Source: a virus
IMG/VR virus record: IMGVR_UViG_3300047476_000704
Span: 1-64,000 of that record
Direction: 5' to 3' (one strand)
DNA: 64,000 bases
The notes below the pieces were generated by a model that was not told the DNA's origin, did no database searches, and was given only the letters and a program-made list of their open reading frames with translations. Numbering within the stretch: the stretch's first letter is position 1; each line of letters begins with the position of its first letter. Both the position numbers and the translations under genes were made by a program. Of this stretch, positions 2,751 through 49,721 are shown piece after piece.

Positions 2751-4947
<2,197 letters not shown>

Positions 4948-22400: not shown

Positions 22401-25400
22401 TTAGAAATTATATCTAACACCTAATTGAATTTGCCACTTACTATTTATTTGGTCTACTGAATATGGTTTTTGTGTTGGTTTAGTAAATGAGAATGTTTCA
22501 CCACTTACTTTTGCCAATCCAACCGATGATGTGGAGTTGAATGAATTGGATACAAAATACATTTCTCCCCACTCTTTATTCAATAGATTTGTTAGGTTGA
22601 ATATATCCGCAGTTAATTGAAAACTCTTACCCACATTTTGTACTATTTTTGCATCTATCGTTGTACTCCAAGGTGTTCTTCCTCCGTTTCTTTCAGTAAA
22701 GTTTCCTTTTCTACTACTCAAATATTCATTACTATTTACAAAATCAGTAAATGCTTGTGCTTGAGTTGCGTTTGGAATATACTTTGCCACCTCATCATCT
22801 TTGAAGATATACACTAACCCCGCTGCCTGCGGATTGTTTTGTAAAGTTCCATTAACTAATCCCCAAGTAAATGGTGTTCCACTTTGTGAATTTAACACCA
22901 AAGATACTTGTGTTGTCTTAAATGATTTTGTAATTTGAGATATGATACGATGTCTAATATCAAAGTTTGAATATGCTAATTGTGGGTCATTAGGAGTTAG
23001 TGATTGATTCAATGTCCAATTACTTTCCATAGAGTTACGAATACCATTTGTTAAATCCTTTGCTACTCCGTATGTGTATGCTCCATAAACATCTAAACCA
23101 AATGGATACTTTTTAGTTACTGATGTTGTTAGTTGGTATCTATATCCTTTGTTCGTATTTGATAATAGGTATGCGTTTGATAAGTTTGAGTTTATCTTTA
23201 CCCCACTATATATTGGCATTTGTTTTTGAGTATCAAATGAATAATAAGTTGGATTATCAGTCACAATGTTGATTTGTTGGAATTTCAAATCATTTATTAC
23301 TTGCGTATATAATCCTTCTACTGAAAATTTGTATCCACCGATTGTTTTATCTACTGCCAAATTACTTCTTAATACGGATGGCATTTTGAAACCATTATCA
23401 ACTAAATCAATTTGTGTTAGATTCTTTTGTCCATTGTTGAATGCAAATGTTTTAGCACCGTCCGTAATTGGGTCTCCCACATTCTTCAAACTTGCTCTAT
23501 TGTTCAAATCAAATGAACCAAAACCAATACCATCATTGTAGTATGCGTATCCCAACCAAGCAAATGGTATTCTACCTACGAACACACCACTACCACCTCT
23601 TACAACTAAATCATTATCCAACTTCCAATTGAATCCAAAACGAGGAGAGATGTTGATGTTGTTAAAGTAATCGTTTGTATATTGTGTTGGTGTTTGTGAA
23701 CTTAATGTAGGTTTGTTTGGTAAGTTTGTATAATCAAAACGAATGCCAGGTGATAGTTTTAAGTTTCCTAATTGGATTTCATCTTGCACATATCCACTTA
23801 ATAAATTTATATCAAATTGTGCATATGGATTATTGAATATATAATCTCTATCGTTGTTTTGGAAACCATAGAAACCTCTTACTCTATTTACTTTTCCAAC
23901 TAAATAATCATCAACTGATTTGTAAGCAATTCTACCATTCCAACTATTTACAAAACCATAATCAATTTTGTAGAACTCATTATGTGTTCCAATTAAGAAT
24001 GAATGATTACCAACTGAAAAGTTAAAGTTGTTTGTAAACTCAAATGTTTTTTGTTTTAAGTTAAAGATAGTTGCTTCTCTTTCGTTTCCAATAAAGATAG
24101 TTCCACCATTGTATGCAATCTCCGTTTGTGGGAAGCCAAAGTTCTCACTTAAAGGAGTTCTATAATCGTGGATGTTGGTGTATCCCAAAATCAAAGAGTT
24201 AGATGCCGAACCTAAATGTGAACGCAACTCCATCACAGTTGATGATTGATTTACATTCTGTCTAAAATCTTGCGAACCAAAACGGAAATTTGCTGCATCT
24301 CTTTCTAAATTGGTAGCATCTGAAATTGTAGTATTGTTTCTCAATGTCAATTGATTGTTATCATTGATATTCCAATCCAATCTATTGAAGAATTTTTTAG
24401 AATTAGAACTGATACTGTAATCTTTGTAATCACCAACATTGTAACCATATTTAGTTTGAGTGTAATCACTTATCTTCTTTGCAGTAATCTCATCTATTAA
24501 ACCACCAGAGTTTACCCCATAGAATACAGGTTCGTTACGATGTGTGATTTCTTCGTTAGTAAATAAAAATAGTTTATTTTTGATTAAAGGTAATCCAATA
24601 CGGAATCCAGTCTGCGCATCTACATAATCCGATGTTGTATTGAATCCTGCTAGCGCCCCATTTCTACCGAATCCGTATATAGAACCTTTAATATCGTTTG
24701 TACCACTACGAGTAATTGCGTTGATTGAACCCCCTACAAAGTTTCCAACCTTTACATCATATGGTGCTATATAAACTTGTATATCTTGTATTGCATCTAC
24801 TGATATTGGAGATGTACGAGTTGATGAACCAGGCATACCAGATGTACCACCCTGTCCTCCCAATGATGGAGAGAATCCAATTGCATCGTTATTGATTGTA
24901 CCATCTATTGTTACATTGTTATAACGAAAGTTTGTACCTGCAAATGAATTGTTTACCGATTGTGGAACTAACTTTGTGAAATCAGTAATTGCTCTACTCA
25001 ATGTAGGAACTGATTTAAGTTTTTCTTCTCCCAAATAAATACCAGCACCAGTCTTTGTACCACCTTTGGTAGCGGTTACTACTACTTCATTTAATTGTGT
25101 TGTTTCTTCTTCTAATTGAATATCTAAATCATTAGAACCTAATGTTAAATAAACACCATCTTTTTCTAATCCTTTATATCCCACCGATGTTACCTTTATT
25201 TTATAAGGTCCACCAGTATTAGCATTAAATATGTGAAAAGTACCATTTACATCTGCGGATGCTCCGTATTTTGTACCAGTAGATGTAAGTGTGATTTGAA
25301 TTGTGGAACCAGGTAGTGTTTCTCCCTTCTTATCTTTGATTGTTCCGTTGATTGATGAATTTGTAACTTGTGAGATTGCTGATGTAGAAATCAACAATGC

Positions 25401-25424
25401 TAAAAATAAAAATAGTTTCCTCAT
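22401..25424 (-). CDS. TonB-dependent outer-membrane receptor (Oar/SusC-like)
   Basis: 1007 residues, full length for the family. Signal peptide (1-18, LFLFLALLISTSAIS), carboxypeptidase-regulatory-like domain (about 22-105, INGTIKDKKGETLPGSTI), TonB-box-like NEVVVTATKGG at about 115, plug domain (to about 240) with FAGTNFRYNNVTIDGTINN and GGSINAITRSGTNDIKGS, then a beta barrel ending in the terminal Phe (IQLGVRYNF) recognised by the BAM machinery. No frameshifts. This protein class imports large substrates through the outer membrane of Bacteroidota using host TonB. Its presence inside a lytic-type replication region is striking. It may replace a host receptor, for superinfection exclusion or nutrient uptake. 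The role is inference. Confidence 0.92.
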   Translation of the reverse strand: MRKLFLFLALLISTSAISQVTNSSINGTIKDKKGETLPGSTIQITLTSTGTKYGASADVNGTFHIFNANTGGPYKIKVTSVGYKGLEKDGVYLTLGSNDLDIQLEEETTQLNEVVVTATKGGTKTGAGIYLGEEKLKSVPTLSRAITDFTKLVPQSVNNSFAGTNFRYNNVTIDGTINNDAIGFSPSLGGQGGTSGMPGSSTRTSPISVDAIQDIQVYIAPYDVKVGNFVGGSINAITRSGTNDIKGSIYGFGRNGALAGFNTTSDYVDAQTGFRIGLPLIKNKLFLFTNEEITHRNEPVFYGVNSGGLIDEITAKKISDYTQTKYGYNVGDYKDYSISSNSKKFFNRLDWNINDNNQLTLRNNTTISDATNLERDAANFRFGSQDFRQNVNQSSTVMELRSHLGSASNSLILGYTNIHDYRTPLSENFGFPQTEIAYNGGTIFIGNEREATIFNLKQKTFEFTNNFNFSVGNHSFLIGTHNEFYKIDYGFVNSWNGRIAYKSVDDYLVGKVNRVRGFYGFQNNDRDYIFNNPYAQFDINLLSGYVQDEIQLGNLKLSPGIRFDYTNLPNKPTLSSQTPTQYTNDYFNNINISPRFGFNWKLDNDLVVRGGSGVFVGRIPFAWLGYAYYNDGIGFGSFDLNNRASLKNVGDPITDGAKTFAFNNGQKNLTQIDLVDNGFKMPSVLRSNLAVDKTIGGYKFSVEGLYTQVINDLKFQQINIVTDNPTYYSFDTQKQMPIYSGVKINSNLSNAYLLSNTNKGYRYQLTTSVTKKYPFGLDVYGAYTYGVAKDLTNGIRNSMESNWTLNQSLTPNDPQLAYSNFDIRHRIISQITKSFKTTQVSLVLNSQSGTPFTWGLVNGTLQNNPQAAGLVYIFKDDEVAKYIPNATQAQAFTDFVNSNEYLSSRKGNFTERNGGRTPWSTTIDAKIVQNVGKSFQLTADIFNLTNLLNKEWGEMYFVSNSFNSTSSVGLAKVSGETFSFTKPTQKPYSVDQINSKWQIQLGVRYNF

Positions 25425-35656: not shown

Positions 35657-36877
35657 TTACCTTCCTACTTCTGATAAATAAAGTTCTTTCATTTTCTCCC
35701 AACTAATACCAATTGCATCTACATAAAATAGAACCTCTGGTTTAATCTTACCTTCATCGTATAATTTAATGTAACGATTTTTGGCTTTCTTTTTCCACCA
35801 ATCCATTGTATATTGAATACCATTCTTAAACTTGTCTTTCAATACCAATTCATCTTCGGAAATCTTATCACATAAGAACTCATTACCATTCTCATACATT
35901 TGTGCGAAATATACACCTCTTTGAAATCCGTGGTCATATGCATCTGATTTAATTCCCAACTCTTTATAGATTGATTGAATAATCTTTTGCTTAATACCAC
36001 TTACAGGTCCGTTTTTTTCATAACCCATATTAGCACCATTTCTTTCACGTTCTTGTGTAATATTTTTACTATACCACTCTGAACGATTTTCTTTAATCCA
36101 TTGATGCCAAGGGTCATAAACCGAATCATCTGGCTTTGTAGAAATCTTACCTTTTGATTCACCTAATGTTTTGAAGTGAGGGATACCATTGTATTGTGAG
36201 TGAATACCATATAGGGATGTTGTACCTATACCAACTAATGGATTACTATATTTCTTTTTCCAATAATCCCGTATCTCTGGTGCGGTTGCTAATGCTGCAA
36301 TTAGTTTACCACCCAAAAAGTTATAACCAAATGGTTGTGTTGATACGATAGTAGTTGCAATAGCAGTACAATTCAATTTACCCTTCTTAAACTTATCATC
36401 TTTACTCCAACCAATGTATGCATCTCTAACACCCAATGATGTAATATCAGAACCTAAACAAATCTGTCCTAATATTTTACCAGTCTTTCTATCTTTTGCA
36501 TAGATTTTAACATTACGACCTGGGTTAGCAGAGAACTCCATTGTATGGATAAGTCTACGAATATCAGTCCATCTTGTTGATTCCTTTGGATTATCTTCAA
36601 CAATTTCCACATAAGGGTCTAACTCATCCAATTCTTTCAGAGTTAGCTCCTTATTGTATATATCGGTTGGTCTCCACAATACATCGTAGAATTGTCCCAA
36701 ATATGATTTTTTAGGAAATGTTGTTTTTAAATCCGCATTCCATTCCATCCACTTTTTGTATAGTGTTTGTTCTTCAACGGACATTTCTTTAAGATAATCC
36801 AAATTCTCAATGAACTTGCGTTTCATCTCATCGTAATTAAAAACCTCCTTTGGTTCTTCGGTATCCCAAAACTTCAT
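35657..36877 (-). CDS. DUF4338/DruA-like protein, unknown role
   Basis: 406 residues. The middle (about 150-260), ILGQICLGSDITSLGVRDAY, then IGWSKDDKFKKGKLNCTAIA and ATTIVSTQPFGYNFLGGKLI, resembles the DUF4338 domain present in DruA of the Druantia defence system. No helicase or methylase partner is nearby. The frame is long and intact and fits tightly between neighbours (one base from the glycosyltransferase gene). Similar proteins are scattered in phages. The domain resemblance is moderate and the function is unknown. Confidence 0.55.
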   Translation of the reverse strand: MKFWDTEEPKEVFNYDEMKRKFIENLDYLKEMSVEEQTLYKKWMEWNADLKTTFPKKSYLGQFYDVLWRPTDIYNKELTLKELDELDPYVEIVEDNPKESTRWTDIRRLIHTMEFSANPGRNVKIYAKDRKTGKILGQICLGSDITSLGVRDAYIGWSKDDKFKKGKLNCTAIATTIVSTQPFGYNFLGGKLIAALATAPEIRDYWKKKYSNPLVGIGTTSLYGIHSQYNGIPHFKTLGESKGKISTKPDDSVYDPWHQWIKENRSEWYSKNITQERERNGANMGYEKNGPVSGIKQKIIQSIYKELGIKSDAYDHGFQRGVYFAQMYENGNEFLCDKISEDELVLKDKFKNGIQYTMDWWKKKAKNRYIKLYDEGKIKPEVLFYVDAIGISWEKMKELYLSEVGR

Positions 36878-41254: not shown

Positions 41255-41425
41255 TGTGGTAGGAGGATTCGAACCATCCAAAGGGAGATTCAGTAAGTAA
41301 CATCCGCCGGCCGGCTTGGTGGTCTACCCCATATTACTTACCTATTTCTTTATCCCCGCCCCCGAGACAGGAGGGTGTGTCTGCCAGATTAGTGCCGCGC
41401 GCTAATCATTTTTCACCATACCACA
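41255..41425 (-). ncRNA. tRNA-like RNA element with internal insertion
   Basis: 171 nt closed by a perfect 7-bp acceptor-like stem (TGTGGTA/TACCACA). The 3' part has a TTCGAAT T-loop-like motif, though the T-stem is imperfect. Inside are two further stems: GATTAG/CTAATC and the 8-bp GTAAGTAA/TTACTTAC. A possible anticodon arm CCCTC-CTGTCTC-GGGGG is present. It is about 95 nt longer than a tRNA. It lacks an Ala-rich tag frame, so it is not a tmRNA. It could be a tRNA with an insertion or a novel tRNA-like RNA. Confidence 0.45.
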
Positions 41426-41428
41426 ATT

Positions 41429-41623
41429 TTAAGGTCTATTGAATGTTATATTATTTTGTAACCGTATATCTTTATTATTTAATACCCAAATTTGTCCATC
41501 ATCCATTCCACAAGTAAAAAATAAATCGTGCTCTTGTGAGTAATCTATACACATAAATGCATATCCTTTCATTCCATCAGATAATCGGATAATTGGTATT
41601 GTTGGGTTTAATTGTATTATCAT
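41429..41623 (-). CDS. small conserved phage protein
   Basis: 64 residues. MIIQLNPTIPIIRLSDGMKG at the start, then CIDYSQEHDLFFTC and GQIWVLNNKDIRLQNNIT. The pattern of an N-terminal IQL-NP strand, a Tyr-x-x-Glu-His turn and the ending NKDIR-x-x-NIT matches a small family seen in T4-like marine phages. Unknown function. Overlaps no RNA gene: it sits between the tRNA-like element and tRNA-Ser. Confidence 0.65.
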   Translation of the reverse strand: MIIQLNPTIPIIRLSDGMKGYAFMCIDYSQEHDLFFTCGMDDGQIWVLNNKDIRLQNNITFNRP

Positions 41624-41652
41624 GCCTATAAATATAAAGTTATGATAATTGT

Positions 41653-41741
41653 AGAGAGTGAGGGGCTCGAACCCTCGCGCCGGTTTTACCCAACCTAACA
41701 GTTTAGCAAACTGCCCCCTTCACCAACTTGGGTAACTCTCT
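41653..41741 (-). tRNA. tRNA-Ser(GCT)
   Basis: Acceptor AGAGAGT/ACTCTCT, anticodon loop TTGCTAA (stem GCAGT/ACTGT), T-loop TTCGAGC. 89 nt, with the long variable arm expected of serine. Confidence 0.88.
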
Positions 41742-41742
41742 G

Positions 41743-41818
41743 TGGTGACTCCATCAGGACTCGAACCTGAAACCTACGCATTAGAAGTGCGTTGCTCTAT
41801 CCATTGAGCTATGGAGCC
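41743..41818 (-). tRNA. tRNA-Arg(TCT)
   Basis: Acceptor GGCTCCA/TGGAGTC, anticodon loop CTTCTAA (stem ACGCA/TGCGT), T-loop TTCGAGT. A 3' CCA is encoded directly after discriminator A. Confidence 0.92.
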
Positions 41819-41823
41819 ATATG

Positions 41824-41910
41824 AGGAGGGTGTGAGATTCGAACTCACGGTCCTGTTACAGACTCCGGTTTTCAAGACCGGTGCAATAGACCAACTCTGC
41901 CAACCCTCCT
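41824..41910 (-). tRNA. tRNA-Ser(TGA)
   Basis: Acceptor AGGAGGG/CCCTCCT, anticodon loop CTTGAAA (stem CCGGT/ACCGG), T-loop TTCGAAT. 87 nt with a long variable arm. Confidence 0.92.
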
Positions 41911-41919
41911 TTTATTATA

Positions 41920-42474
41920 TTACTCTTCGTTTAATTTCAAATCTTCAATAACTTCTTTATGGATTCGTCTTTCCTCTTCCATTAGTTCTTCTAACATTGC
42001 ATAAACTTCATCTCGATAATCATCATCTCCATAGAATTTATTTGCATCAATATCTTCATCTAAATATTCTTCCGAACCATATTCCGATGAATAATATGCT
42101 ATACCCATTGGGTCACAACTTTCGTCCTGAAATGTATTCTCAATTACAACATCCTCTTTGATACATATAAGTTTAGAACATAATTGTTTAAGTAATGGAT
42201 TTACTGCATCCCATGCTGATGTTAGATTGATTGAAATTTCAGTATCCCATTCTCCCTCAATTTGTCCATATACCCATTTAGCACCAACATTATCATTTAC
42301 CCAACCTCTATCATAATCCTCATCTGTCCAATTCATATCATATACACCATTAATTATATCAATTGTATGTGTATCTCCAATTTCATCCTGCACCGAAAAG
42401 ATTCTTTTCAACTCATCAATAACTGCTTGGTTACAATTTTTAACTCTAACCATATTATCTACGTGATTTGCCAT
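41920..42474 (-). CDS. DUF1281-like protein, unknown
   Basis: 184 residues, acidic. MANHVDNMVRVKNCNQAVID at the start resembles DUF1281/YubB-type phage proteins, where a ferredoxin-like domain follows. The middle contains TDEDYDRGWVNDNVGAKWVY, the C-terminus is a highly acidic helix. It overlaps the upstream coiled-coil gene by one base, so the two form a small operon inside the tRNA array. Confidence 0.6.
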   Translation of the reverse strand: MANHVDNMVRVKNCNQAVIDELKRIFSVQDEIGDTHTIDIINGVYDMNWTDEDYDRGWVNDNVGAKWVYGQIEGEWDTEISINLTSAWDAVNPLLKQLCSKLICIKEDVVIENTFQDESCDPMGIAYYSSEYGSEEYLDEDIDANKFYGDDDYRDEVYAMLEELMEEERRIHKEVIEDLKLNEE

Positions 42475-42827
42475 TAGATTTCTTCGGTTTTAGTTTGTGT
42501 TGAATCAGATTTTAATTTAATTTCGGGATATTTTTGGCGAATTTCAACCGAATCTTCAACTGCCCACTTTTGTTTAAGTTTAGCTCTTTTTTCAATATTC
42601 TTCAATTGTTCTTTCTTCTTTTGAATATCTTTTGTTAGTTTTTCAATACGAACATATTTACTTGCATAATCTTCATCGGTGGCATCAATCCACTCAATTT
42701 TTCTTTTAGATTCTTTGATTTCTGCTTTCAAACTTTCAACCAATGGTGCCTCATCACTAAACTTCGGGTCAATAGTTCCACCCAATGTGTTTAGTAAAAG
42801 CATGATAGACATTCCCAATTCTTTCAT
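42474..42827 (-). CDS. coiled-coil protein, unknown
   Basis: 117 residues. A short hydrophobic start (about residues 4-15) is followed by a long charged coiled coil (about 30-95) with many Lys and Glu. Not recognised. It has a -7 promoter box at 42843-42850. Confidence 0.5.
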   Translation of the reverse strand: MKELGMSIMLLLNTLGGTIDPKFSDEAPLVESLKAEIKESKRKIEWIDATDEDYASKYVRIEKLTKDIQKKKEQLKNIEKRAKLKQKWAVEDSVEIRQKYPEIKLKSDSTQTKTEEI

Positions 42828-42842
42828 ATGAATTATTTTTTA

Positions 42843-42850
42843 CAAATATA
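42843..42850 (-). promoter_or_regulatory. -7 promoter box
   Basis: TATATTTG on the minus strand 16 bases before the coiled-coil gene. No clean TTTG at the -33 position. Confidence 0.5.
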
Positions 42851-42891
42851 AGATATTTTTTTATTATATCCTAATTTTATTTAACTTTTGT

Positions 42892-42961
42892 TACCCGAGC
42901 TGGATTCGAACCAACCCTAACTGCACCAAAAACAGTTGTGCTACCGCTACACCATCGAGCA
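42892..42961 (-). tRNA. tRNA-Gln(TTG)
   Basis: Acceptor TGCTCGA/TCGGGTA (G-U pairs), anticodon loop TTTTGGT (stem ACTGT/GCAGT), T-loop TTCGAAT. Confidence 0.85.
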
Positions 42962-42967
42962 ATTCGC

Positions 42968-43040
42968 AGTTCGTACGGGATTCGAACCCGTGGTCTCCAC
43001 AGTGACAGTGTGGGATGTTGGGCCTCTACACCAACGAACT
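42968..43040 (-). tRNA. tRNA-Asp(GTC)
   Basis: Acceptor AGTTCGT/ACGAACT, anticodon loop CTGTCAC (stem CCACA/TGTGG), T-loop TTCGAAT. Confidence 0.93.
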
Positions 43041-43045
43041 AAATG

Positions 43046-43300
43046 TGATTACTGATTTGACTCATTTCGAACTTTCGGGGCTCGTATCATTCAATTTCAG
43101 TAATCAATAATTAAAACAAACTTTTTGTACCCGATGTACATCATAACCAATTCGCATTGGTGGTTACATTTTCGCATTTGGGTTAATTACTCCCGACTTA
43201 TAGTAACTCTCTCCTGACCTGTATGACTATTCCGGCTTCAACAGTACCCTTTTGGATTTTATATACCGAGGGGTTACACCTCAGTCTTCGTTTGTTTTGA
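43046..43300 (-). other. 260-base non-tRNA stretch with hairpins
   Basis: No ORF with coding character. A 10-bp stem TGATTACTGA/TCAGTAATCA encloses 41 bases at 43046-43106. TAACCA/TGGTTA and ACTGAGG/CCTCGGT hairpins follow. The latter ends in CTCGGTA, also present at the start of the elements at 44226 and 48190. Possibly a structured RNA, or a decayed tRNA region. Confidence 0.4.
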
Positions 43301-43372
43301 GCTTCCAGTCGGAATCGAACCAACAACCTCTCGATTACAAATCGAAGGCTCTACCAGTTGAGCTATGGAAGC
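43301..43372 (-). tRNA. tRNA-Thr(TGT)
   Basis: Acceptor GCTTCCA/TGGAAGC, anticodon loop TTTGTAA (stem TTCGA/TCGAG), T-loop TTCGATT. Its 5' end overlaps the stop of the HNH gene. Confidence 0.93.
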
Positions 43373-43782
43373 GTATTATTTCTTTTTTGCAAAGCTATTT
43401 TAGAACCTTTTATACCACCTTCTAACATTCTAGCATAACCTTCTTCTGATATATTTTTTAAACCAAAAGTTGGAGTTTGTGAATGACAATTAGGACACAT
43501 TATTTTTAGGTTTTCATGTCTATTATCTCTTCTATTTCCATTTATATGGTCAATCTGAAATGTTATTGGTTTTCCATTATATTCGGTAATACCACATTCT
43601 TCACATCTTTCACCTCTTATCTTTTTAAGATGAATACCCATACCTTTACTCCAATTAGTATCTAATTGAAACTTTGTTTTAATTCTATCGGCTGCTGAAC
43701 AATCCCACCCACAATACAATCCTTTTGATTGAGATGGCATATATGTTATTTCTTTTCCACAATTTTTACAATTTGATTTCAT
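43363..43782 (-). CDS. HNH endonuclease in the tRNA array
   Basis: 139 residues. Zinc-binding Cys pairs at the N-terminus (NCKNCGKEI, LYCGWDC) and in the HNH core (RCEECGI, then FQIDHINGNRRDNRHENLKI and MCPNCHSQ). It resembles free-standing homing endonucleases of phages, which often insert at tRNA genes. The stop codon lies ten bases inside the tRNA-Thr gene, so transcript processing must separate them. A hairpin of eight base pairs (TAGGTTAC/GTAACCTA) precedes it. Confidence 0.88.
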   Translation of the reverse strand: MKSNCKNCGKEITYMPSQSKGLYCGWDCSAADRIKTKFQLDTNWSKGMGIHLKKIRGERCEECGITEYNGKPITFQIDHINGNRRDNRHENLKIMCPNCHSQTPTFGLKNISEEGYARMLEGGIKGSKIALQKRNNTLP

Positions 43783-43804
43783 AGTATTTTCTTTACTATA
43801 AATA

Positions 43805-43836
43805 TTAGGTTACTAAAAAAAAGTAAAGTAACCTAA
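43805..43836 (-). other. hairpin between tRNA-Glu and HNH gene
   Basis: TAGGTTAC/GTAACCTA, 8 bp, with a T-rich loop. It could end the tRNA transcript or act in the HNH leader. No T run follows on the minus strand, so it is not a classical terminator. Confidence 0.3.
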
Positions 43837-43844
43837 CCAAATGT

Positions 43845-43917
43845 ACTCCGGACGGGACTCGAACCCGTAAGCTTCCACGTGAAAGGCGGATGTCCTAACC
43901 AATTAGACGACCGGAGC
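43845..43917 (-). tRNA. tRNA-Glu(TTC)
   Basis: Acceptor GCTCCGG/CCGGAGT, anticodon loop CTTTCAC (stem TCCGC/GTGGA), T-loop TTCGAGT. A promoter lies six bases upstream. Confidence 0.92.
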
Positions 43918-43922
43918 ATTTA

Positions 43923-43954
43923 CAAATATAACTATTTTATTTTTTAATTCCAAA
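43923..43954 (-). promoter_or_regulatory. Bacteroidota-type promoter for tRNA-Glu
   Basis: TTTG (43951-43954), 20-base spacer, TATATTTG (43923-43930) on the minus strand. Confidence 0.8.
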
Positions 43955-43971
43955 CTTTTATGGAATTATTT

Positions 43972-44054
43972 TGGTGGGGGCAGAAAGACTCGAACTTCCG
44001 AACCCGAAGGAGAGCATTTACAGTGCCCCGCAATTGCCGCTATGCGATACCCCC
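43972..44054 (-). tRNA. tRNA-Tyr(GTA)
   Basis: Acceptor GGGGGTA/TGCCCCC, anticodon loop CTGTAAA (stem GGGCA/TGCTC), T-loop TTCGAGT, long variable arm. 3' CCA encoded. Confidence 0.93.
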
Positions 44055-44153
44055 AATTTAGTCTTTTCCTTACCTCTTAATAACCACATTGCCAGTCCGA
44101 TGTTACTATCGGATGCTTACCAAAATCATACTTTGGAGCGATTACTACATTGA

Positions 44154-44224
44154 GCAGGTAGTCAGATTCGAACTGACGTCTCCGGTTTGGAAGACCAGAG
44201 CACTAACCACTGTGCTATACCTGC
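44154..44224 (-). tRNA. tRNA-Gly(TCC)
   Basis: Acceptor GCAGGTA/TACCTGC, anticodon loop CTTCCAA (stem CTGGT/ACCGG), T-loop TTCGAAT. Canonical shape. Confidence 0.93.
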
Positions 44225-44225
44225 A

Positions 44226-44452
44226 AATTTCCCCACTTGAGATTCCAGATGAGTAGATATTTATAGTTTTTCCTTTCAAAAACCCAATGCATCTTACTGC
44301 TTAAAAAGTCAACACTACGGGGAGGAGCCGTGTCCCCACTCCTTTATTCCCACGAGAACGGCGTTTTATTAGTTAGGATGTCCGCTCCATTACCCTATCC
44401 ATTGTTAAATGAGTCTTGGATTAAAGACTACCGAGTATCTCTTACTCGTTGT
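44226..44452 (-). ncRNA. candidate structured RNA between tRNA-Met and tRNA-Gly
   Basis: 227 nt without a coding frame. It starts with hairpin CGAGTA/TACTCG, continues with AGATACTCGGTA, hairpin AGTCTT/AAGACT, the block AATAAAACGCCGTT, then CTCGTGGGAATAAAGGAGTG and the hairpin GGGG/CCCC around ACACGGCTCCT. The order AGATACTCGGTA, hairpin, ATAA-ACGCC, CGTG-AATAAA recurs in the 5' part of the element at 47277-48266 with a different stem sequence. That is consistent with a related RNA. Confidence 0.5.
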
Positions 44453-44525
44453 GGACCAGGTAGGAATCGAACCTACTACCTTCACATTATGAGTGTGCCG
44501 CTCTAACCGAGTGAGCTACAAGTCC
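44453..44525 (-). tRNA. tRNA-Met(CAT)
   Basis: Acceptor GGACTTG/CTGGTCC with one mismatch, anticodon loop CTCATAA, T-loop TTCGATT. Elongator Met or, if lysidine-modified, Ile for AUA; not separable from sequence. Confidence 0.85.
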
Positions 44526-44581
44526 ATATCGTTTAATCTAACGATAAAATCTAATATCGTTTCTTTCAACGATAAATAAGG

Positions 44582-44690
44582 TGCCGGAGGAGAGATTGGT
44601 TACTCTCACGATGCCCTTCTCGGTTACACCACCACTCTAGAATAGGTACGTCTAATGGTTGTACTTCCCATTTGTTCCGCCACTCCGGCA
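44582..44690 (-). ncRNA. tRNA-like RNA element (109 nt)
   Basis: Perfect 8-bp closing stem TGCCGGAG/CTCCGGCA. The 5' part GTGGCGGAAC resembles a Leu/Ser D-arm, but the T-arm equivalent GAGAG-TAACCAA-TCTCT lacks the TTC motif and no clear anticodon arm forms. It ends nine bases before tRNA-Ala, so it is likely co-processed. A decayed tRNA or a novel RNA. Confidence 0.45.
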
Positions 44691-44699
44691 TATTTCTTT

Positions 44700-44776
44700 T
44701 GGTGGAGAAAGTGGGATTCGAACCCACGACCTCTTGAATGCAAATCAAGCGTTCTAGCCAACTGAACTAAATCCCC
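44700..44776 (-). tRNA. tRNA-Ala(TGC)
   Basis: Acceptor GGGGATT/TTTCTCC with mismatches at its inner end, anticodon loop TTTGCAT (stem CTTGA/TCAAG), T-loop TTCGAAT, 3' CCA encoded. Confidence 0.85.
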
Positions 44777-44780
44777 ATTA

Positions 44781-44884
44781 TGTAACGGCTGTGCGGTTTG
44801 TGTCTCATTCACTCCTTTATACGAGCTTCAAAAGTTTCCATTTCATACCTAGCGTCTGTTCCGCCATTCTTTCGAATCGTTACA
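44781..44884 (-). ncRNA. tRNA-like RNA element (104 nt)
   Basis: Perfect 7-bp closing stem TGTAACG/CGTTACA, four bases from tRNA-Ala and four from tRNA-Leu. Contains ATGGCGGAAC as in the element at 44582. Contains CTCGTATAAAGGAGTG, similar to CTCGTGGGAATAAAGGAGTG at 44226-44452. No T-loop motif or anticodon arm. The tight packing suggests it is excised by the same tRNA-processing enzymes. Confidence 0.45.
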
Positions 44885-44888
44885 TTGT

Positions 44889-44971
44889 ACTTCGGACTGG
44901 AATCGAACCAGCACTCTCTTACGAAAACAAGATTTTAAGTCTTGCGGGTCTACCTATTCCCCCACCGAAGC
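44889..44971 (-). tRNA. tRNA-Leu(TAA)
   Basis: Acceptor GCTTCGG/CCGAAGT, anticodon loop CTTAAAA (stem CAAGA/TCTTG), T-loop TTCGATT, long variable arm. Own promoter begins eight bases upstream. Confidence 0.93.
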
Positions 44972-44978
44972 AACTTTA

Positions 44979-45010
44979 CAAATATACGAAACTTTTTTCA
45001 TATATCCAAA
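44979..45010 (-). promoter_or_regulatory. Bacteroidota-type promoter for tRNA-Leu
   Basis: TTTG (45007-45010), 20-base spacer with AAAAAAGTTTCG, TATATTTG (44979-44986) on the minus strand. One of several near-identical copies in the array. Confidence 0.85.
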
Positions 45011-45033
45011 TGATTTCAACAAAAAGTTTAATG

Positions 45034-45104
45034 TTGCGTGTGTGGGGTTCGAACCCACTTGACTTTCCTTATGAGAGATAGCTCTTTTCCACCAAGCCAC
45101 GCAA
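45034..45104 (-). tRNA. tRNA(CAT), Met or Ile2
   Basis: Acceptor TTGCGTG/CACGCAA, anticodon loop CTCATAA with a weak stem (one mismatch), T-loop TTCGAAC. A second CAT anticodon; an Ile AUA reader is possible. Confidence 0.75.
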
Positions 45105-45109
45105 TATGG

Positions 45110-45183
45110 GGTGTTTAATGGGATTCGAACCCATACTATCAGTACCACAAACTGATGTGCTAACCATTAACACCATAAACAAC
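45110..45183 (-). tRNA. tRNA-His(GTG)
   Basis: Extra 5' G opposite discriminator C, acceptor TTGTTTA/TAAACAC with a first-pair mismatch, anticodon loop TTGTGGT (stem TCAGT/ACTGA), T-loop TTCGAAT. Confidence 0.85.
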
Positions 45184-45185
45184 GA

Positions 45186-45256
45186 GGTGAATATTGGATT
45201 CGAACCAATGTAAAAGGTTTTGCAGACCTCCACCTTACCAACTCGGTCAATTCACC
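45186..45256 (-). tRNA. tRNA-Cys(GCA)
   Basis: Acceptor GGTGAAT/ATTCACC, anticodon loop CTGCAAA (stem GAGGT/ACCTT), T-loop TTCGAAT. Confidence 0.92.
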
Positions 45257-45263
45257 ATTATGT

Positions 45264-45334
45264 AGTTCCATAGAGACTCGAACTCCAACTTTGACATCCG
45301 TAGTGTCAGGTGCTATCCATTACACCATAGAACC
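45264..45334 (-). tRNA. tRNA-Arg(ACG)
   Basis: Acceptor GGTTCTA/TGGAACT, anticodon loop CTACGGA (stem TGACA/TGTCA), T-loop TTCGAGT. A34 would need conversion to inosine by host TadA to read CGU/CGC/CGA. Confidence 0.9.
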
Positions 45335-45339
45335 ATTGC

Positions 45340-45409
45340 ACGTCCTGAAAGATTCGAACTTTCATCTGCGGTTTTGGAGACCGATATGCTACCATTGCAC
45401 CAAAGACAT
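45340..45409 (-). tRNA. tRNA-Trp(CCA)
   Basis: Acceptor ATGTCTT/AGGACGT, anticodon loop CTCCAAA, T-loop TTCGAAT. Confidence 0.85.
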
Positions 45410-45452
45410 GTATTTTATTTCCAAAGTAAAAAATTACCTTCAAAAAATTTTT

Positions 45453-45471
45453 CCAACTTCACCCAAAAGTT
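45453..45471 (-). terminator. possible terminator inside the tRNA array
   Basis: Hairpin CAACTT/AAGTTG followed on the minus strand by GAAAAATTTTTT, downstream of tRNA-Ile. Moderately stable. Confidence 0.45.
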
Positions 45472-45481
45472 GAAAAAGTGT

Positions 45482-45554
45482 AGAGAAAATAGGACTCGAA
45501 CCTATAACCTTCTGCGTATCAGGCAAATGCTCTAACCAATTGAGCTATATCTCT
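45482..45554 (-). tRNA. tRNA-Ile(GAT)
   Basis: Acceptor AGAGATA/TTTCTCT (one mismatch), anticodon loop CTGATAC (stem TTTGC/GCAGA), T-loop TTCGAGT. Confidence 0.9.
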
Positions 45555-45561
45555 ATTCGGT

Positions 45562-45633
45562 AGGGTAAGCAGGACTCGAACCTACAACCTCACGCACCCA
45601 AAACGTGTAATCTAGCCATTGATATACTACCCT
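45562..45633 (-). tRNA. tRNA-Pro(TGG)
   Basis: Acceptor AGGGTAG/TTACCCT, anticodon loop TTTGGGT (stem CACGT/GCGTG), T-loop TTCGAGT. Confidence 0.9.
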
Positions 45634-45640
45634 ATATTGT

Positions 45641-45712
45641 GAACCCGTTGGGAATCGAACCCAAAACCCCTACATTAAAAGTGTAGTGCTCTACCAATTG
45701 AGCTACGAGTTC
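45641..45712 (-). tRNA. tRNA-Lys(TTT)
   Basis: Acceptor GAACTCG/CGGGTTC, anticodon loop CTTTTAA (stem CTACA/TGTAG), T-loop TTCGATT. Confidence 0.93.
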
Positions 45713-45714
45713 GT

Positions 45715-45791
45715 TGGTGGAGCAGACAGGTATCGAACCTGTTCCTCTGGATTTTCAGTCCAGCGCAATGCACCTCATCTGCCACTACTCC
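45715..45791 (-). tRNA. tRNA-Phe(GAA)
   Basis: Acceptor GGAGTAG/CTGCTCC, anticodon loop CTGAAAA (stem CTGGA/TCCAG), T-loop TTCGATA, 3' CCA encoded. Confidence 0.93.
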
Positions 45792-45832
45792 TTCTAATCC
45801 GATTTTGATTTGTAGCATCGGGAACTACCTGT

Positions 45833-45905
45833 GTCCATAGTAGGATTCGAACCTACACAATCTGGTTTCTAAAACCAACACGGTTGCCAATTACGTCATA
45901 CGGAC
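45833..45905 (-). tRNA. tRNA with TAG anticodon (Leu codons) and short variable arm
   Basis: Acceptor GTCCGTA/TATGGAC, anticodon loop TTTAGAA (stem TTGGT/ACCAG), T-loop TTCGAAT. The anticodon reads CUA/CUN leucine codons, but the variable region is only five bases (ATTGT), unlike the long arm of bacterial leucine tRNAs. Confidence 0.75.
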
Positions 45906-45914
45906 ATTTATTGT

Positions 45915-45986
45915 AGTGAGTGAGGGACTCGAACCCCCAACATCCGCCATGTAAAGACGGCGCTCTACCAATTGAGCTAACCCACT
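45915..45986 (-). tRNA. tRNA-Val(TAC)
   Basis: Acceptor AGTGGGT/ACTCACT, anticodon loop TTTACAT (stem CCGTC/GGCGG), T-loop TTCGAGT. Confidence 0.9.
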
Positions 45987-46019
45987 GTTTCACCATTATG
46001 TCAAAGAACTTATTCTTGC

Positions 46020-46090
46020 GTTGATGGTAGGATTCGAACCTACGACCAATAGATTAACAGTCTACTGCGCTACCACTGCGCCACATCAAC
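46020..46090 (-). tRNA. tRNA-Asn(GTT)
   Basis: Acceptor GTTGATG/CATCAAC, anticodon loop CTGTTAA (stem GTAGA/TCTAT), T-loop TTCGAAT. Confidence 0.93.
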
Positions 46091-46103
46091 TTATTTTTAA
46101 TCA

Positions 46104-46136
46104 TAAAAAAACCCCTAACTTTTTGAGTCAGGGGTT
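46104..46136 (-). terminator. strong Rho-independent terminator
   Basis: 11-bp stem AACCCCTGACT/AGTTAGGGGTT with loop CAAAA, then seven T on the minus strand. It ends the transcript carrying the 47-residue ORF, 14 bases before tRNA-Asn. Confidence 0.92.
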
Positions 46137-46163
46137 GTTTTAATTTAAGTATGTAGTTTGGTC

Positions 46164-46307
46164 TTATCCCAAGTCTACATCGTTTAATATTGTTGCCCCT
46201 AACTGATTTTCAATTCCTTTCGAACTAAAATCACACACGCGATTGCCTGCCCACATCAAATTTGATGTCGGTTGATAAGCTATCGTATGCAGGTTAAGAG
46301 TTTTCAT
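46164..46307 (-). CDS. 47-residue small protein
   Basis: Small frame starting MKTLNLHTIAYQPTSNLMWA and ending NQLGATILNDVDLG, preceded by an A/G-rich AAAAGAAAAAAGAAA leader and followed 28 bases later by a strong terminator. The compact gene-plus-terminator arrangement supports it being real. No recognised family. It contains one Cys and no membrane segment. Confidence 0.5.
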   Translation of the reverse strand: MKTLNLHTIAYQPTSNLMWAGNRVCDFSSKGIENQLGATILNDVDLG

Positions 46308-46350
46308 TTTCTTTTTTCTTTTAATATATATAAGTTTTTTTTATTTTAAG

Positions 46351-46911
46351 TTAAAAATCGTAATATCCTTTTACTTTTGTTATATTACAATCGCTATTCC
46401 AAGATATAATTGTTTTTACTACATCACTATCAACTCTAGGTGCTCTATGTAGAATAAAACTTGGGAATGTTAGAACATCTCCTTCTTTCACATCCATCTC
46501 AATTATTTCATCCTGATTTATTGGATTTAATAATTGTGTTTTTGGAGAACCTTCTGGTAAATCTAAATAATAAACATTAGTCCATTGGCATCCTAAATGA
46601 ACATGCCAACCATGTTCCGAACCTTTGTTGTATTGTTGAAACCAAATATTTCTTATTTTAATTTCATCATACCCAAGCTCATCAAATCTATGTTGTAATA
46701 GATTAGTTATTGGTTGCATTACTGGCTTCAAATAAAGCCGTTCAACTTCCCTACTTACATCCCAATCTGTTCTACTTATATCAGTATAATCATTTGGAAA
46801 TGTATATCTTGTAGATTCACATTCATTTATTAATTTCAATACCTCATCCTTTATTATTTCATGCTCTGGTAATTTGGAGATGATATATGGACATTGTATT
46901 GATTTAATCAT
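46351..46911 (-). CDS. 2OG-Fe(II) oxygenase-like protein
   Basis: 186 residues. The metal-binding region is EHGWHVHLGCQWTNVYYLDL (His-x-His, about residue 100) followed by LTFPSFILHRAPRVDSDVVK (distal His and Arg, about 150). It resembles the PF13759-type putative 2OG-Fe(II) oxygenases common in T4-like marine phages. It is the only sizeable protein gene in the middle of the tRNA array. Substrate unknown; its place beside the tRNA genes allows the guess that it modifies tRNA, which is untested. Confidence 0.75.
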   Translation of the reverse strand: MIKSIQCPYIISKLPEHEIIKDEVLKLINECESTRYTFPNDYTDISRTDWDVSREVERLYLKPVMQPITNLLQHRFDELGYDEIKIRNIWFQQYNKGSEHGWHVHLGCQWTNVYYLDLPEGSPKTQLLNPINQDEIIEMDVKEGDVLTFPSFILHRAPRVDSDVVKTIISWNSDCNITKVKGYYDF

Positions 46912-46925
46912 AATCTAATTTTTGG

Positions 46926-46996
46926 AGCGGAGGGATGGAATCGAACCACCTCATTGTACTGGAATGTACACATGCTACCGGAACACTTCCTCCGCT
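46926..46996 (-). tRNA. tRNA, probable Gly(TCC), odd anticodon loop
   Basis: Acceptor GCGGAGG/CCTCCGC, T-loop TTCGATT. The best anticodon stem (TGTAC/GTACA) leaves a six-base loop ATTCCA instead of seven. Anticodon TCC is the likely reading; Trp (CCA) cannot be excluded. Confidence 0.6.
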
Positions 46997-47014
46997 TATA
47001 ATTTAGAAAGATTT

Positions 47015-47112
47015 GTGGGGTGGCTCTTTCTAGTGGAACTAGCTACATTCCGTTTTTACCATTCAACTTTTATTCGTATCGTTGAAGTTATTTTATAGGT
47101 TAAACTCCCCAC
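47015..47112 (-). ncRNA. stem-closed element between two tRNAs (98 nt)
   Basis: GTGGGG/CCCCAC closing stem, inner hairpins TTCAAC/GTTGAA and GGAA/TTCC around TGTAGCTAG. It is bounded by tRNA-Gly-like genes on both sides. No coding frame. Speculative structured RNA. Confidence 0.35.
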
Positions 47113-47204
47113 CTAAAAACTTGGTATTACTTTTTAATCTGATTTGTGGTTAAAGTGTAAAATCAATCTCGTTACCTTCACGCCTATTGAAAACCACTAC
47201 GAAG

Positions 47205-47276
47205 AGCGAAACAAAGGAATTGAACCCCCTCCTTCGACCTGGACGGCCGATGTGCTACCATTACACCAATCTCGCT
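47205..47276 (-). tRNA. tRNA, probable Gly(TCC), U33 missing
   Basis: Acceptor AGCGAGA/TTTCGCT, D-arm TTGGTGTAATGGTAGCACA, anticodon loop CGTCCAG (stem TCGGC/GTCGA) with G instead of the universal U at position 33, T-loop TTCAATT. Isotype uncertain; possibly degenerate. Confidence 0.6.
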
Positions 47277-48266
47277 TATATTATTACGGATGAGAATACT
47301 CACGTAAACGAACCAGCTTTTGTTGGATTATTGTTTCCCAACTTTTCCACTATCTTTTGGATAGTACCGATTCAATGCGGGTTAGTTAAGCCAACCACTC
47401 ATAAAGTTACAAACTACTCTCTCTTTACTCCGCTTCTTCTACTCTGCCGAACAGATTCACACTTGCGGTGTTAGAAGTTTTTCGAAAGAATCACAGACCT
47501 CTTGCGGAGGTATCGTGGCAGGGAACATCTCCCTACTATGTACGCACCTTTCGTTTGCAACTGGCGAACACTTTTGCTCTTTTTGTTTAAGATTTGCGTC
47601 AAATGCAAAATGAGTTTGGTTTGTAGATGGTTTCAAGTAGTGGTTCACCAACCTGCTCCGTTATCTTTTGAACAACAGAATACTGAACTACTCGATGTGT
47701 TATCCCTAACACCATACTTTAAGTCTGCTTCATAACTCCTACCTTGGTAGGTGAAGAGTAAGGATAATAACGACACCACTCGTACTTTATCTTACCTTTC
47801 GGTTTTAAGCAAACTCTAATATTGAATCACGCAATTGTTGAAAGGGATTAAGTTTCAGTTTCTCGCAATAACTCTATGGATTATTCTTATTGGTGTTCCC
47901 ACCTCAACTGAACTATCTACTTTAGCCCAGTCATTTCACCACCCTCTTTACAGTGTTACCCTCAATACTAAAGGTGAAATGATATTCCACTTGCCTACTC
48001 AAGCTCCTTTCGAAGCCGCAAATCACTTAAACCAAATGATTCACTTTATCCTACTTTCGTAGTTTATTTCACGACCATAGGCGGCCGATGTACACTATGT
48101 AGAACTAGTCTACTATGTGCTAATGCTTTTAATAATAATTGAAATGTTGTACATTTTACGGGCGTCTTATTTACAATTAGTCTACTATCCCACAATTATT
48201 ATATTTCTCAAAGAACTTTTTATTTGAGTTACCGAGTATCTTTCATCACCTATTGGTCTCAAATCT
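47277..48266 (-). ncRNA. candidate ~1 kb structured noncoding RNA
   Basis: About 990 nt with no convincing coding frame, less AT-rich than its surroundings, and densely packed with hairpins. Examples are CTAC-GAAA-GTAG, ACC-GAAA-GGT, AGGGA/TCCCT, ATTTCACC/GGTGAAAT (8 bp, enclosing 32 nt), CCTAC-CAAG-GTAGG, ACCTC/GAGGT, ACTATC/GATAGT and CTCAAA/TTTGAG. GNRA tetraloops favour the minus strand. A promoter at 48273-48303 starts it, and a tRNA follows directly. Size, ornate structure and location beside tRNAs recall GOLLD and ROOL RNAs of phages, but no consensus match could be tested. Confidence 0.55.
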
Positions 48267-48272
48267 ATAATA

Positions 48273-48303
48273 CAAATATACGAAACTTTTTCCATATATC
48301 AAA
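48273..48303 (-). promoter_or_regulatory. Bacteroidota-type promoter of the large RNA
   Basis: TTTG (48300-48303), 19-base spacer, TATATTTG (48273-48280) on the minus strand, reading directly into the 47277-48266 segment. Confidence 0.85.
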
Positions 48304-48309
48304 ATTATT

Positions 48310-48507
48310 TTTACTTTTTTTTAAGATTGGTTGTCTCCGGCTTTTTAACCCCCCGCGTTTGGAAAGATATTCACACATTCGGTTTTATTAGATGTTGGCT
48401 TCAACAACCATTCTTAAATATTGGATGAGTAGTGGGATGGTATTTCTACCTCTCGGGTCCTCTTAACACCGGACTTCTCCACACCGGCATACTAACCTCA
48501 TTTTCAA
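48310..48507 (-). other. 198-base noncoding segment with own promoter
   Basis: No coding frame of note. Hairpins GTTG/CAAC, GTCC/GGAC and a G-run CGCGGGGGGTT are seen. It is transcribed from the promoter at 48513-48543 and ends where the next promoter begins. Possibly a small RNA. Confidence 0.35.
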
Positions 48508-48512
48508 CATTA

Positions 48513-48543
48513 CAAATATACGAAACTTTTTTCATATATCAAA
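48513..48543 (-). promoter_or_regulatory. Bacteroidota-type promoter
   Basis: TTTG (48540-48543), 19-base spacer, TATATTTG (48513-48520) on the minus strand, directly after tRNA-fMet. Confidence 0.85.
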
Positions 48544-48562
48544 GTCTTTTTAACTTTTTTTT

Positions 48563-48637
48563 TGGTTGCGGGAGACAGAATCGAACTATCGTAGACCTGG
48601 CTTATGAGACCGGTGGGAAACCAACATCCTCCCCGCG
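48563..48637 (-). tRNA. initiator tRNA-fMet(CAT)
   Basis: Acceptor CGCGGGG/TCCCGCA with the C1-A72 mismatch that marks bacterial initiators; the 5' heptamer CGCGGGG is the same as in E. coli tRNA-fMet. Anticodon loop CTCATAA, T-loop TTCGATT, 3' CCA encoded. Promoter directly upstream. Confidence 0.85.
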
Positions 48638-48650
48638 ATTTATTATGATA

Positions 48651-48682
48651 CAAATATACGAAACTTTTTTCATATATCCAAA
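48651..48682 (-). promoter_or_regulatory. Bacteroidota-type promoter of tRNA-fMet
   Basis: TTTG (48679-48682), 20-base spacer, TATATTTG (48651-48658) on the minus strand. Confidence 0.85.
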
Positions 48683-48689
48683 TGATTTC

Positions 48690-49232
48690 TCATTTATTTT
48701 TTACGATATTAAAAAACTCAAATACATCTTCTTCTAGCATATTACTTTTTAAGTTGTTAGCTGTAAGACTTATGAATTGAATATTATCAATTGTATATGG
48801 TTTTGATGAATCAATTCTATCAATAGATGCTTTGTAATTACTTGATATGGTTTTATATTTTGGTTGATATTGTAATACTAAATCTACATTTGTAAGTTTA
48901 CATTTACCATTTTGATAATTCCATATTTCAACTAATTTATCTAAATCCAATTCATATACAAATTTAGATTTCCTAGCTCTAACTCTTTTAGCAAAATCTC
49001 GCATAGATGATTTGATTTTCTGCTCTTCTGTGATGAGTTTGTTTTCACCACCTTTGAAATGATATGGATTTGCAGATAGTTTTATCATTTCAATATTACC
49101 ATCTCTATTACCAGAACATTTTAGACTACAATAAAAATCGGTCTTTCCCAATTTTATTCTTCTGTTGTATTCGTTTTTTGGTTTTTCAAAATCAACATTA
49201 CATATTTTGCATTTTACTTTTATCGTTTTCAT
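48690..49232 (-). CDS. HNH-type endonuclease with zinc ribbon
   Basis: 180 residues. N-terminal zinc-binding knuckles KVKCKICNVDFEKP and FYCSLKCSGN, a helical linker, then a C-terminal nuclease-like region: GKCKLTNVDLV and YKASIDRIDSSKPYTIDNIQ, the Asp-Arg-Ile-Asp version of the HNH/endonuclease VII beta-beta-alpha motif. Probably a free-standing homing endonuclease within the tRNA array. ATG start of MKTIKVKC preferred to an in-frame GTG two codons upstream. Confidence 0.78.
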   Translation of the reverse strand: MKTIKVKCKICNVDFEKPKNEYNRRIKLGKTDFYCSLKCSGNRDGNIEMIKLSANPYHFKGGENKLITEEQKIKSSMRDFAKRVRARKSKFVYELDLDKLVEIWNYQNGKCKLTNVDLVLQYQPKYKTISSNYKASIDRIDSSKPYTIDNIQFISLTANNLKSNMLEEDVFEFFNIVKNK

Positions 49233-49282
49233 ATCCACTATATGTTTGTATATAAATATAGTGGAGATGAAGAAAACGAATA

Positions 49283-49399
49283 GTGGAGATGGTGGTATTC
49301 GAAACCACGTCCAGATAAGTTTCTAATGTAAATCGTTCACAAGTTTATTCAATTTTTCTAAACTGAAAAAATATAGAGTTTCTATTTTGCCATTGCCAC
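49283..49399 (-). ncRNA. tRNA-like RNA element (117 nt)
   Basis: Closing stem GTGGCAATGG/CCATCTCCAC (8 of 10 pairs). A complete T-arm, GTGGT-TTCGAAT-ACCAC, lies at the 3' side, with hairpins ATAGA/TCTAT and AGTTTA/TAAACT inside. No anticodon arm of standard shape. Longer than any standard tRNA. Compare 41255-41425. Confidence 0.4.
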
Positions 49400-49462
49400 T
49401 CTCAAATGTGGAAGATTCACTTTAATAGGTAGAACCTCAAACGAGACCTCACTTCCGTTCAC
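49382..49462 (-). CDS. possible 26-residue peptide
   Basis: GTG-started frame after AAAAAGAA, encoding NGSEVSFEVLPIKVNLPHLR with a short C-terminal tail. It overlaps the tRNA-like element by 18 bases. Low confidence. Confidence 0.25.
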   Translation of the reverse strand: MNGSEVSFEVLPIKVNLPHLRVAMAK

Positions 49463-49496
49463 TTCTTTTTAAGTCCCACGAGTGATGCGGGATTGA

Positions 49497-49679
49497 TTAG
49501 GCAGCTACTGCGTAATCGAATGAGTTCATCCATGCCATAGCATCTTCGAACGTCATTGTAGATAATTCTACGTCTGCACTTATTGTTTGATAGGTATTCA
49601 AAGGTTTCCATCTAACCTTACTTGCATCAATACAACCAGTCTTCATACCTGTCAAAAGCCGGTCATCCCCATATTTCAA
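49497..49679 (-). CDS. 60-residue small protein, TTG start
   Basis: 60 residues, from a TTG start a few bases after the promoter at 49690-49721. Ends STMTFEDAMAWMNSFDYAVA. No recognised family. The near-leaderless start is unusual. It could be a chance frame upstream of the tRNA-like element. Confidence 0.4.
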   Translation of the reverse strand: MKYGDDRLLTGMKTGCIDASKVRWKPLNTYQTISADVELSTMTFEDAMAWMNSFDYAVAA

Positions 49680-49689
49680 ATAACTTATA

Positions 49690-49721
49690 CAAATATACGA
49701 AACTTTTTTCGTAATTCCAAA
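49690..49721 (-). promoter_or_regulatory. Bacteroidota-type promoter
   Basis: TTTG (49718-49721), 20-base spacer with AAAAAAGTTTCG, TATATTTG (49690-49697) on the minus strand, at the upstream end of the tRNA array. Confidence 0.85.

Follow-up and report, generated by a model that had tools for sequence, protein, structure and literature searches.

Between a tRNA-Met gene (44451..44525) directly upstream and a tRNA-Gly gene (44152..44224) directly downstream, the minus strand of the window (64,000 nt, taken from a virus record of 194,856 bases) carries a small structured RNA at 44228..44448. Its core is spanned end to end by our covariance model R1 (168.7 bits, E 2e-53). The window's row of tRNA genes also contains a large RNA, GOLLD, on the same strand at 47276..48270 (ends approximate), where RF02032 matches 47287-47695 with 293.6 bits (E 6e-83) and the whole stretch folds with a z of -4.88; the window's own tmRNA (49281-49670, RF00023) is close by. 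The analysis strongly confirms that the element at 44226-44452 is a conserved structured RNA gene, separate from GOLLD. It is one copy of an RNA gene family borne by many uncultured bacterial viruses between tRNA genes, and it is probably a tool for the phage during infection. Elsewhere on the minus strand, the window encodes GroEL (2751-4397) and a DruA-like (Druantia) protein (35657-36877).

Read along its own strand, the fold of the small RNA runs through P1, P2 with PK1, PK2, P4 with PK3, P5, P6 and P8, all on the minus strand of the window. The first hairpin, P1 (CGAGTA-AGAGA-TACTCG, 44432..44448), has five of its six pairs changed on both sides in alignment A3. It is followed by P2 (AGTCTT/AAGACT, 44412..44429), which is 98.3% paired with two-sided changes in 4/6 pairs. 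The P2 loop ATCC (44418-44421) pairs with GGAT (44397-44400) to form PK1 (44397..44421; two-sided changes in 5/5 pairs, 86.3% paired). The next pseudoknot, PK2 (44356..44396), consists of two interleaved helices, AGGGT (44392-44396) with ATCCT (44375-44379) and GAGCGG (44382-44387) with CCGTTC (44356-44361), and exists in several unrelated sequence versions within the family. P4 (GGG/CCC, then AGGAG/CTCCT; 44311..44351) shows two-sided changes in all eight pairs, and its loop GACAC (44330-44334) pairs with GTGTT (44311-44315) as PK3, in which 4/5 pairs have changed on both sides. P5 (GCA/TGC) and P6 (GTTTTT/AAAAAC) occupy 44266..44300, with two-sided changes in 3/4 and 1/6 pairs, respectively. 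The last hairpin, P8 (CTCAT/GTGGG with a TCTC loop, 44232..44253), is 100% paired, and three of its six family pairs have two-sided changes.

Column covariation across the family alignment is strong and supports both the hairpins and the three pseudoknots. In A3, which has 35 distinct rows, pairing extends to 89.4% of cells, compared with 76.8% after shuffling and 41-51% with the partner slid; 40/58 pairs have changed on both sides, and 0/500 shuffles reach either this count or the paired percentage. The claim that 44226-44452 holds a conserved RNA structure, made in an earlier note on this DNA, is thus borne out by covariation within the element's own family. A2 (71 distinct rows) gives 90.1% paired and 39/57 pairs with two-sided changes, again with 0/500 shuffles, a count that includes two non-family rows (L090 and L102) dropped from the member count. 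Because the shuffles ignore relatedness, the 0/500 values are not probabilities; the slid-partner control retains relatedness and agrees with the shuffle result.

How these counts were obtained bears on their reading. A1 is a plain MAFFT alignment and A2 and A3 are model-fitted; the pair counts were taken from the latter two because A1 misplaces PK2 and parts of P2. P1, P2, P4, P5, P6 and P8 are built into the model, so their counts lean to structure; PK1, PK2, PK3 and the loop-loop contact described below lie outside it. Conservation of P1 and AAGACT in A1 and A2 is by construction, because the first search pattern fixes them, and the same applies to P5 and P6 in A3, because most of the loci behind A3 were picked up by the P5-P6 pattern (7/47 rows are from earlier-found loci: three from L163, two from L082 and one each from L095 and L067). 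Support for PK2 is weaker than for the other parts of the fold. Its pair counts reach only 65-80% because the alignment is poor there, and in 45/86 members no more than 3/60 shuffles equal the member's own pseudoknot score, in a test whose fixed 54-nt segment reaches into P4 and so blurs the PK2 signal.

The two ends of the RNA may also meet. The P1 loop GAGA (44438-44441) and the P8 loop TCTC (44239-44242) could kiss, and they are pairable in every row with letters on both sides (29/29 in A3, 66/66 in A2). Changes between these loops are one-sided only, A to G opposite U. This loop conservation, together with the one-sided A-to-G changes, fits a P1-P8 kiss, short of proof. A copy comprising the 3' half only, present as one sequence at L246, L257, L258, L260 and L263, has TCTT in place of TCTC, which likewise fits a kiss.

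Minimum-energy folding of the window's single small-RNA sequence does no better than shuffles (z -0.78), which may be an effect of ignoring pseudoknots. A protein-coding reading was dropped, as no open frame is kept across members: of 91 distinct members, two can be read from end to end in a sense frame without a stop, and the other 89 cannot.

The family is sizeable. The first search pattern, built on the first two hairpins, matched at least 119 stretches in IMG/VR. A second pattern, which draws on P5 and P6 and makes no use of the 5' half, gave 65 matches, 37 of them new loci, and R1 matches 37/37 of these. R1 scores of 46 bits or more occur in at least 155 viral contigs, the window's included, some of which are probably the same virus in different samples; scores below 23 bits were treated as chance, among them a 22.5-bit match in an archaeal MAG (L182). 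A2 and A3 together comprise 115 members of full length, of which 91 are distinct; this tally sets aside truncated copies and one batch of model matches. Members are 202-221 nt long (~210 nt), except for four with insertions. Second, diverged copies lie at L082:2441-2642 (45.2 bits) and L163:3855-4115 (81.8 bits), the former without the GAGA loop and without the TCTC loop.

Searches of known collections suggest that the family itself is new. Rfam 15, run on the window element and on 16 loci, gave no family match at cut-off or weakly; for the window element nothing came up beyond plastid or lncRNA matches at chance level, none above 14.5 bits. Also considered was whether the RNA is RNase P-like or an SRP, 6S, group I or tmRNA, and none of these matched in Rfam. 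A blastn search of INPHARED with five members yielded no family match: the window query, with a limit of E <= 10, returned two chance matches that did not exceed 37 bits, and the other four returned nothing. One member used as query against a plasmid collection found nothing, an exact pattern in 84,980 species genomes produced one off-family match only, and no description of the family was found in the open-licence PMC literature. The family thus appears to be new, judging from these comparisons, and its general kind, tRNA-island phage RNA with an elaborate structure, is already represented by GOLLD (PMC12286853). RNAs C and D of phage T4 are earlier examples of that kind.

The earlier note had read the small element as a smaller relative of the large RNA, on the grounds that a set of motifs recurs in both in one order. 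Those motifs are indeed present on the minus strand of both stretches: AGATACTCGGTA, a 6-bp inverted repeat, ATAAAACGCC / ATAAGACGCC, then CGTGGGAATAAA / CGTGAAATAAA. The two hairpins cited for compensation, AGTCTT/AAGACT and CTCAAA/TTTGAG, are also there; the compensating changes are found within the small RNA's own family (4/6 pairs of P2, the AGTCTT hairpin) and not with respect to GOLLD. A common 12-mer, the order of the short blocks and a tRNA-Gly(tcc) that follows both RNAs in the window speak for kinship. Alignment, however, is about at chance level: the score of 24 between the two RNAs is reached by 66/500 dinucleotide shuffles and, with looser gap costs, the local-alignment score of the small RNA against the whole of GOLLD is matched by 359/500. 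When the comparison is confined to the 5' part of GOLLD, the figures are 17/500 with strict gap costs, the sole result that leans toward kinship, and 182/500 with looser ones. The comparison with shuffles that the earlier note itself named as able to refute its reading comes out largely against kinship. The shared 12-mer is reached by 27/2000 shuffles, and several further repeated 12- to 13-mers, neither tRNA nor promoter, occur within 41278-49700 (8.4 kb).

Nor are the shared blocks conserved in either family. The consensus among relatives of the small RNA is TACTCAG rather than TACTCGG, and the ATAA-ACGCC block, which falls inside the PK2 region, varies freely. The GOLLDs of L014 and L009, which past query position 139 are 98% and 97% identical, respectively, have neither the CTCAAA/TTTGAG hairpin nor the ACGCC block, because both sit in a ~78-nt stretch found only in the window's copy. 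GATACTC pairs differently in each RNA: in the small RNA it is the loop end plus 3' strand of the first hairpin, and in the minimum-energy fold of GOLLD it supplies the 5' side of the terminal stem and pairs with GAGTATT close to the 3' end. Model searches concur. R1 run on the 194,856-base record (E <= 10) finds the small element alone and no GOLLD, RF02032 has no match to 44226-44450 even at E <= 5, and R1 finds no small RNA in two GOLLD-bearing, ~640-kb uncultured phage records, L183 and L184 (LR745206.1, LR756502.1). A scan of viral contigs with the motif pair from the earlier note returned a single contig, L002, at an unrelated stretch that has no Rfam RNA and is apparently coding. With alignment near chance, the blocks unconserved in both families and R1 blind to GOLLD, we reject the reading of the small RNA as a GOLLD paralogue or fragment and give it practically no credence. 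On GOLLD itself, the ~78-nt stretch in its 5' part (window 48150-48235) contains a near repeat of ATAGTAGACTA and is absent from the two close relatives; from these sequences, the GOLLD 5' end seems to vary by insertion.

The placement of the small RNA relative to tRNA genes is regular. Across 94 distinct loci, a tRNA called by ARAGORN ends 0-2 nt upstream in 44 (exactly 2 nt in 43), a tRNA begins 5-8 nt past the last hairpin in 56, and tRNAs adjoin on both sides in 29; the loci without an adjoining ARAGORN tRNA lie in part at contig ends or beside tRNA-like genes. Relatives of the window's phage have the small RNA at the same site, and across the family the flanking tRNA types vary. A selfish or decayed insertion element that lands at tRNA ends would account for the constant gap to tRNA 3' ends, for the varied flanking types and for the existence of 3'-half copies. 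Such an element would not be expected to remain mostly single copy, to lack an open frame, to keep its fold under strong covariation or to hold the same site in kin. Exactly one match is present in 41/48 carrier IMG/VR records searched whole, the other seven having extra matches that are mostly weak; these records were picked because they carry the small RNA and may be fragments, so such counts are lower bounds. We consider an insertion element very improbable.

The arrays also speak to a possible action in cis, in which the RNA would serve the tRNA transcript it belongs to by preventing termination, by insulating or by guiding the processing of a long untranslated operon. In favor of such a role, the small RNA lies inside or beside tRNA arrays and on their strand, and no opposite-strand tRNA is nearby in the 40 loci whose flanks extend 3 kb or more. 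Yet no place in the array is favored: the median is three tRNAs upstream and two downstream, and the extreme is 23 upstream and one downstream. An antiterminator would be expected early in the operon, and in our judgement three pseudoknots would be superfluous for a processing signal. A cis role therefore strikes us as unlikely.

A further alternative arises from the upstream neighbors. Of the upstream contexts, 79 are distinct, and 64 of these finish with a T-arm and an acceptor stem whose 5' strand is found, marking them as tRNA or tRNA-like; 43 of these are of normal length (70-89 nt) and 21 are elongated (100-235 nt). A ribozyme that cuts the tRNA array or acts on such elongated neighbors would suit the compact fold with its several pseudoknots. 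On the other side, none of Rfam's ribozymes, group I introns or RNase P families matches the small RNA, and 43/64 upstream neighbors are of ordinary tRNA length; we regard catalysis as quite unlikely.

The elongated genes, which may be another unlisted RNA family, occur at L113:3432-3605 and at L063, L069, L109, L111, L126, L127, L150, L166, L174 and others. They combine a tRNA-Leu-like acceptor (often AGTCAGG/CCTGACT) with a D-arm and a T-arm, span 100-235 nt and have no normal anticodon arm. Near the small RNA of L113 they are the only such genes, with no tRNA called by ARAGORN or Rfam. The window has a tRNA-like stretch of its own at 44560-44690 (minus strand), with acceptor GCCGGAG/CTCCGGC and no normal arms, which neither ARAGORN nor Rfam calls.

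The carriers are diverse, since the DNA polymerase of the window's phage is matched in only 18/50 carrier records, from 96% identity downward. Promoter copies of the form GATATATG(A/G)AAAAAGTTTCGTATATTTGTA, which we take to be a Bacteroidota-like type, stand ahead of minus-strand RNA genes in the window at 44989-45017, 48262-48291, 48511-48540 and 48649-48689. Bacteroidota-type promoters number 313 in the loci and 73 in a reversed control, and the window encodes a TonB-receptor-like outer-membrane barrel with a CarboxypepD_reg domain (22401-25424, minus strand). The promoter excess and the barrel hint at Bacteroidota hosts.

One carrier illustrates how the small RNA changes. L006 is close to the window's phage, with 96% identity in the polymerase and 95% in GOLLD (partial), and each tested 45-nt piece of its small RNA matches other phages at 42-44/45 positions and its own kin at 20-35/45. 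Comparison of these sequences indicates that the small RNA changes by recombination between phages, a swapping of modules in which pairing is kept.

Trans action is preferred over a cis signal or a selfish element because of the position of the small RNA, its near single copy and the conservation of its fold. We propose that this single-copy phage gene specifies a ~220-nt RNA that would be transcribed within the tRNA operon and released by tRNA enzymes, most likely through 3' processing of the upstream tRNA and RNase P cleavage where the downstream tRNA begins. The released RNA is predicted to fold into its chain of hairpins and three pseudoknots, with a ring closed by the kiss of the first loop, GAGA, with the last, TCTC. 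The stable product could then act in trans during infection by binding a fast-changing host target. Binding to a host target is the likeliest role because modules are swapped between phages while pairing is kept; a defence or translation factor is a first guess at its identity, with nothing pointing to one target, and we would sooner expect that guess to fail than to hold. Against the proposal stand several loci with no recognised tRNA on one side (of the 40 loci with 3-kb flanks, 10 have none upstream and 11 none downstream) and the single-sequence fold that is no better than shuffles. The proposal as a whole we hold to be probable, with considerable room for doubt.

Several known systems invite comparison. 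tmRNA is a stable RNA with a chain of pseudoknots, and the small RNA differs from it in having no tRNA-like end, no tag frame and no RF00023 match. RNAs C and D of phage T4 are stable non-tRNA RNAs of unknown function, ~120-140 nt long, that are cut from the tRNA transcript of these enterobacterial phages. The small RNA resembles them in lying between tRNA genes, and probably in sharing a single transcript with those genes; it is longer than they are, and the INPHARED blastn search without a match leaves distant kinship possible. ROOL is much larger than the small RNA and has no match in the window or in the 16 scanned loci. It shares with the small RNA an ornate structure and a place adjoining tRNAs in phages, and it assembles through kissing loops (PMC12286853). 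GOLLD is described as a phage RNA with a defined structure that resides in tRNA islands and whose function is unknown (PMC12286853). Like the small RNA, GOLLD is a tRNA-island phage RNA for which loop-loop contacts are possible, and the two share arrays in at least 13/48 carrier records; unlike it, GOLLD is ~1 kb rather than ~210 nt, has a different fold, gives no sequence or model match and occurs alone in two huge phages.

These comparisons lead to a bolder, more tentative idea, which we offer as possible rather than probable. The small RNA could represent a phage RNA machine of a new class: a three-pseudoknot ring closed by a kiss, perhaps oligomeric like GOLLD and ROOL, released by host tRNA maturation and module-swapped as phage and host contend at the RNA level. 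Several unlisted structured RNAs, this one and the elongated tRNA-like genes included, would then fill the tRNA islands of uncultured phages, probably of Bacteroidota. At the least, a widespread and strongly conserved RNA gene apparently has no entry in Rfam or in the annotated collections of phages and plasmids that were searched, and the non-tRNA content of phage tRNA islands extends beyond GOLLD and ROOL. The gene bears on the long-open question of why ornate RNAs lie beside phage tRNAs. Because it is compact (~220 nt), the RNA is a tractable target for cryo-EM, probing and knock-out, and module swapping with pairing kept would provide a natural test of RNA evolution in host conflict.

Other spacers beside tRNAs also look structured. 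In the window these are 46995-47204 and 48330-48510, with no Rfam family at the gathering cut-off, and L082:2020-2150 and L082:3501-3700 were judged similar from reading the sequence. At L115:3883-4191, a weak manA RNA match (31.1 bits against a cut-off of 55.2, E 2.5e-4) fills the gap between two tRNAs.
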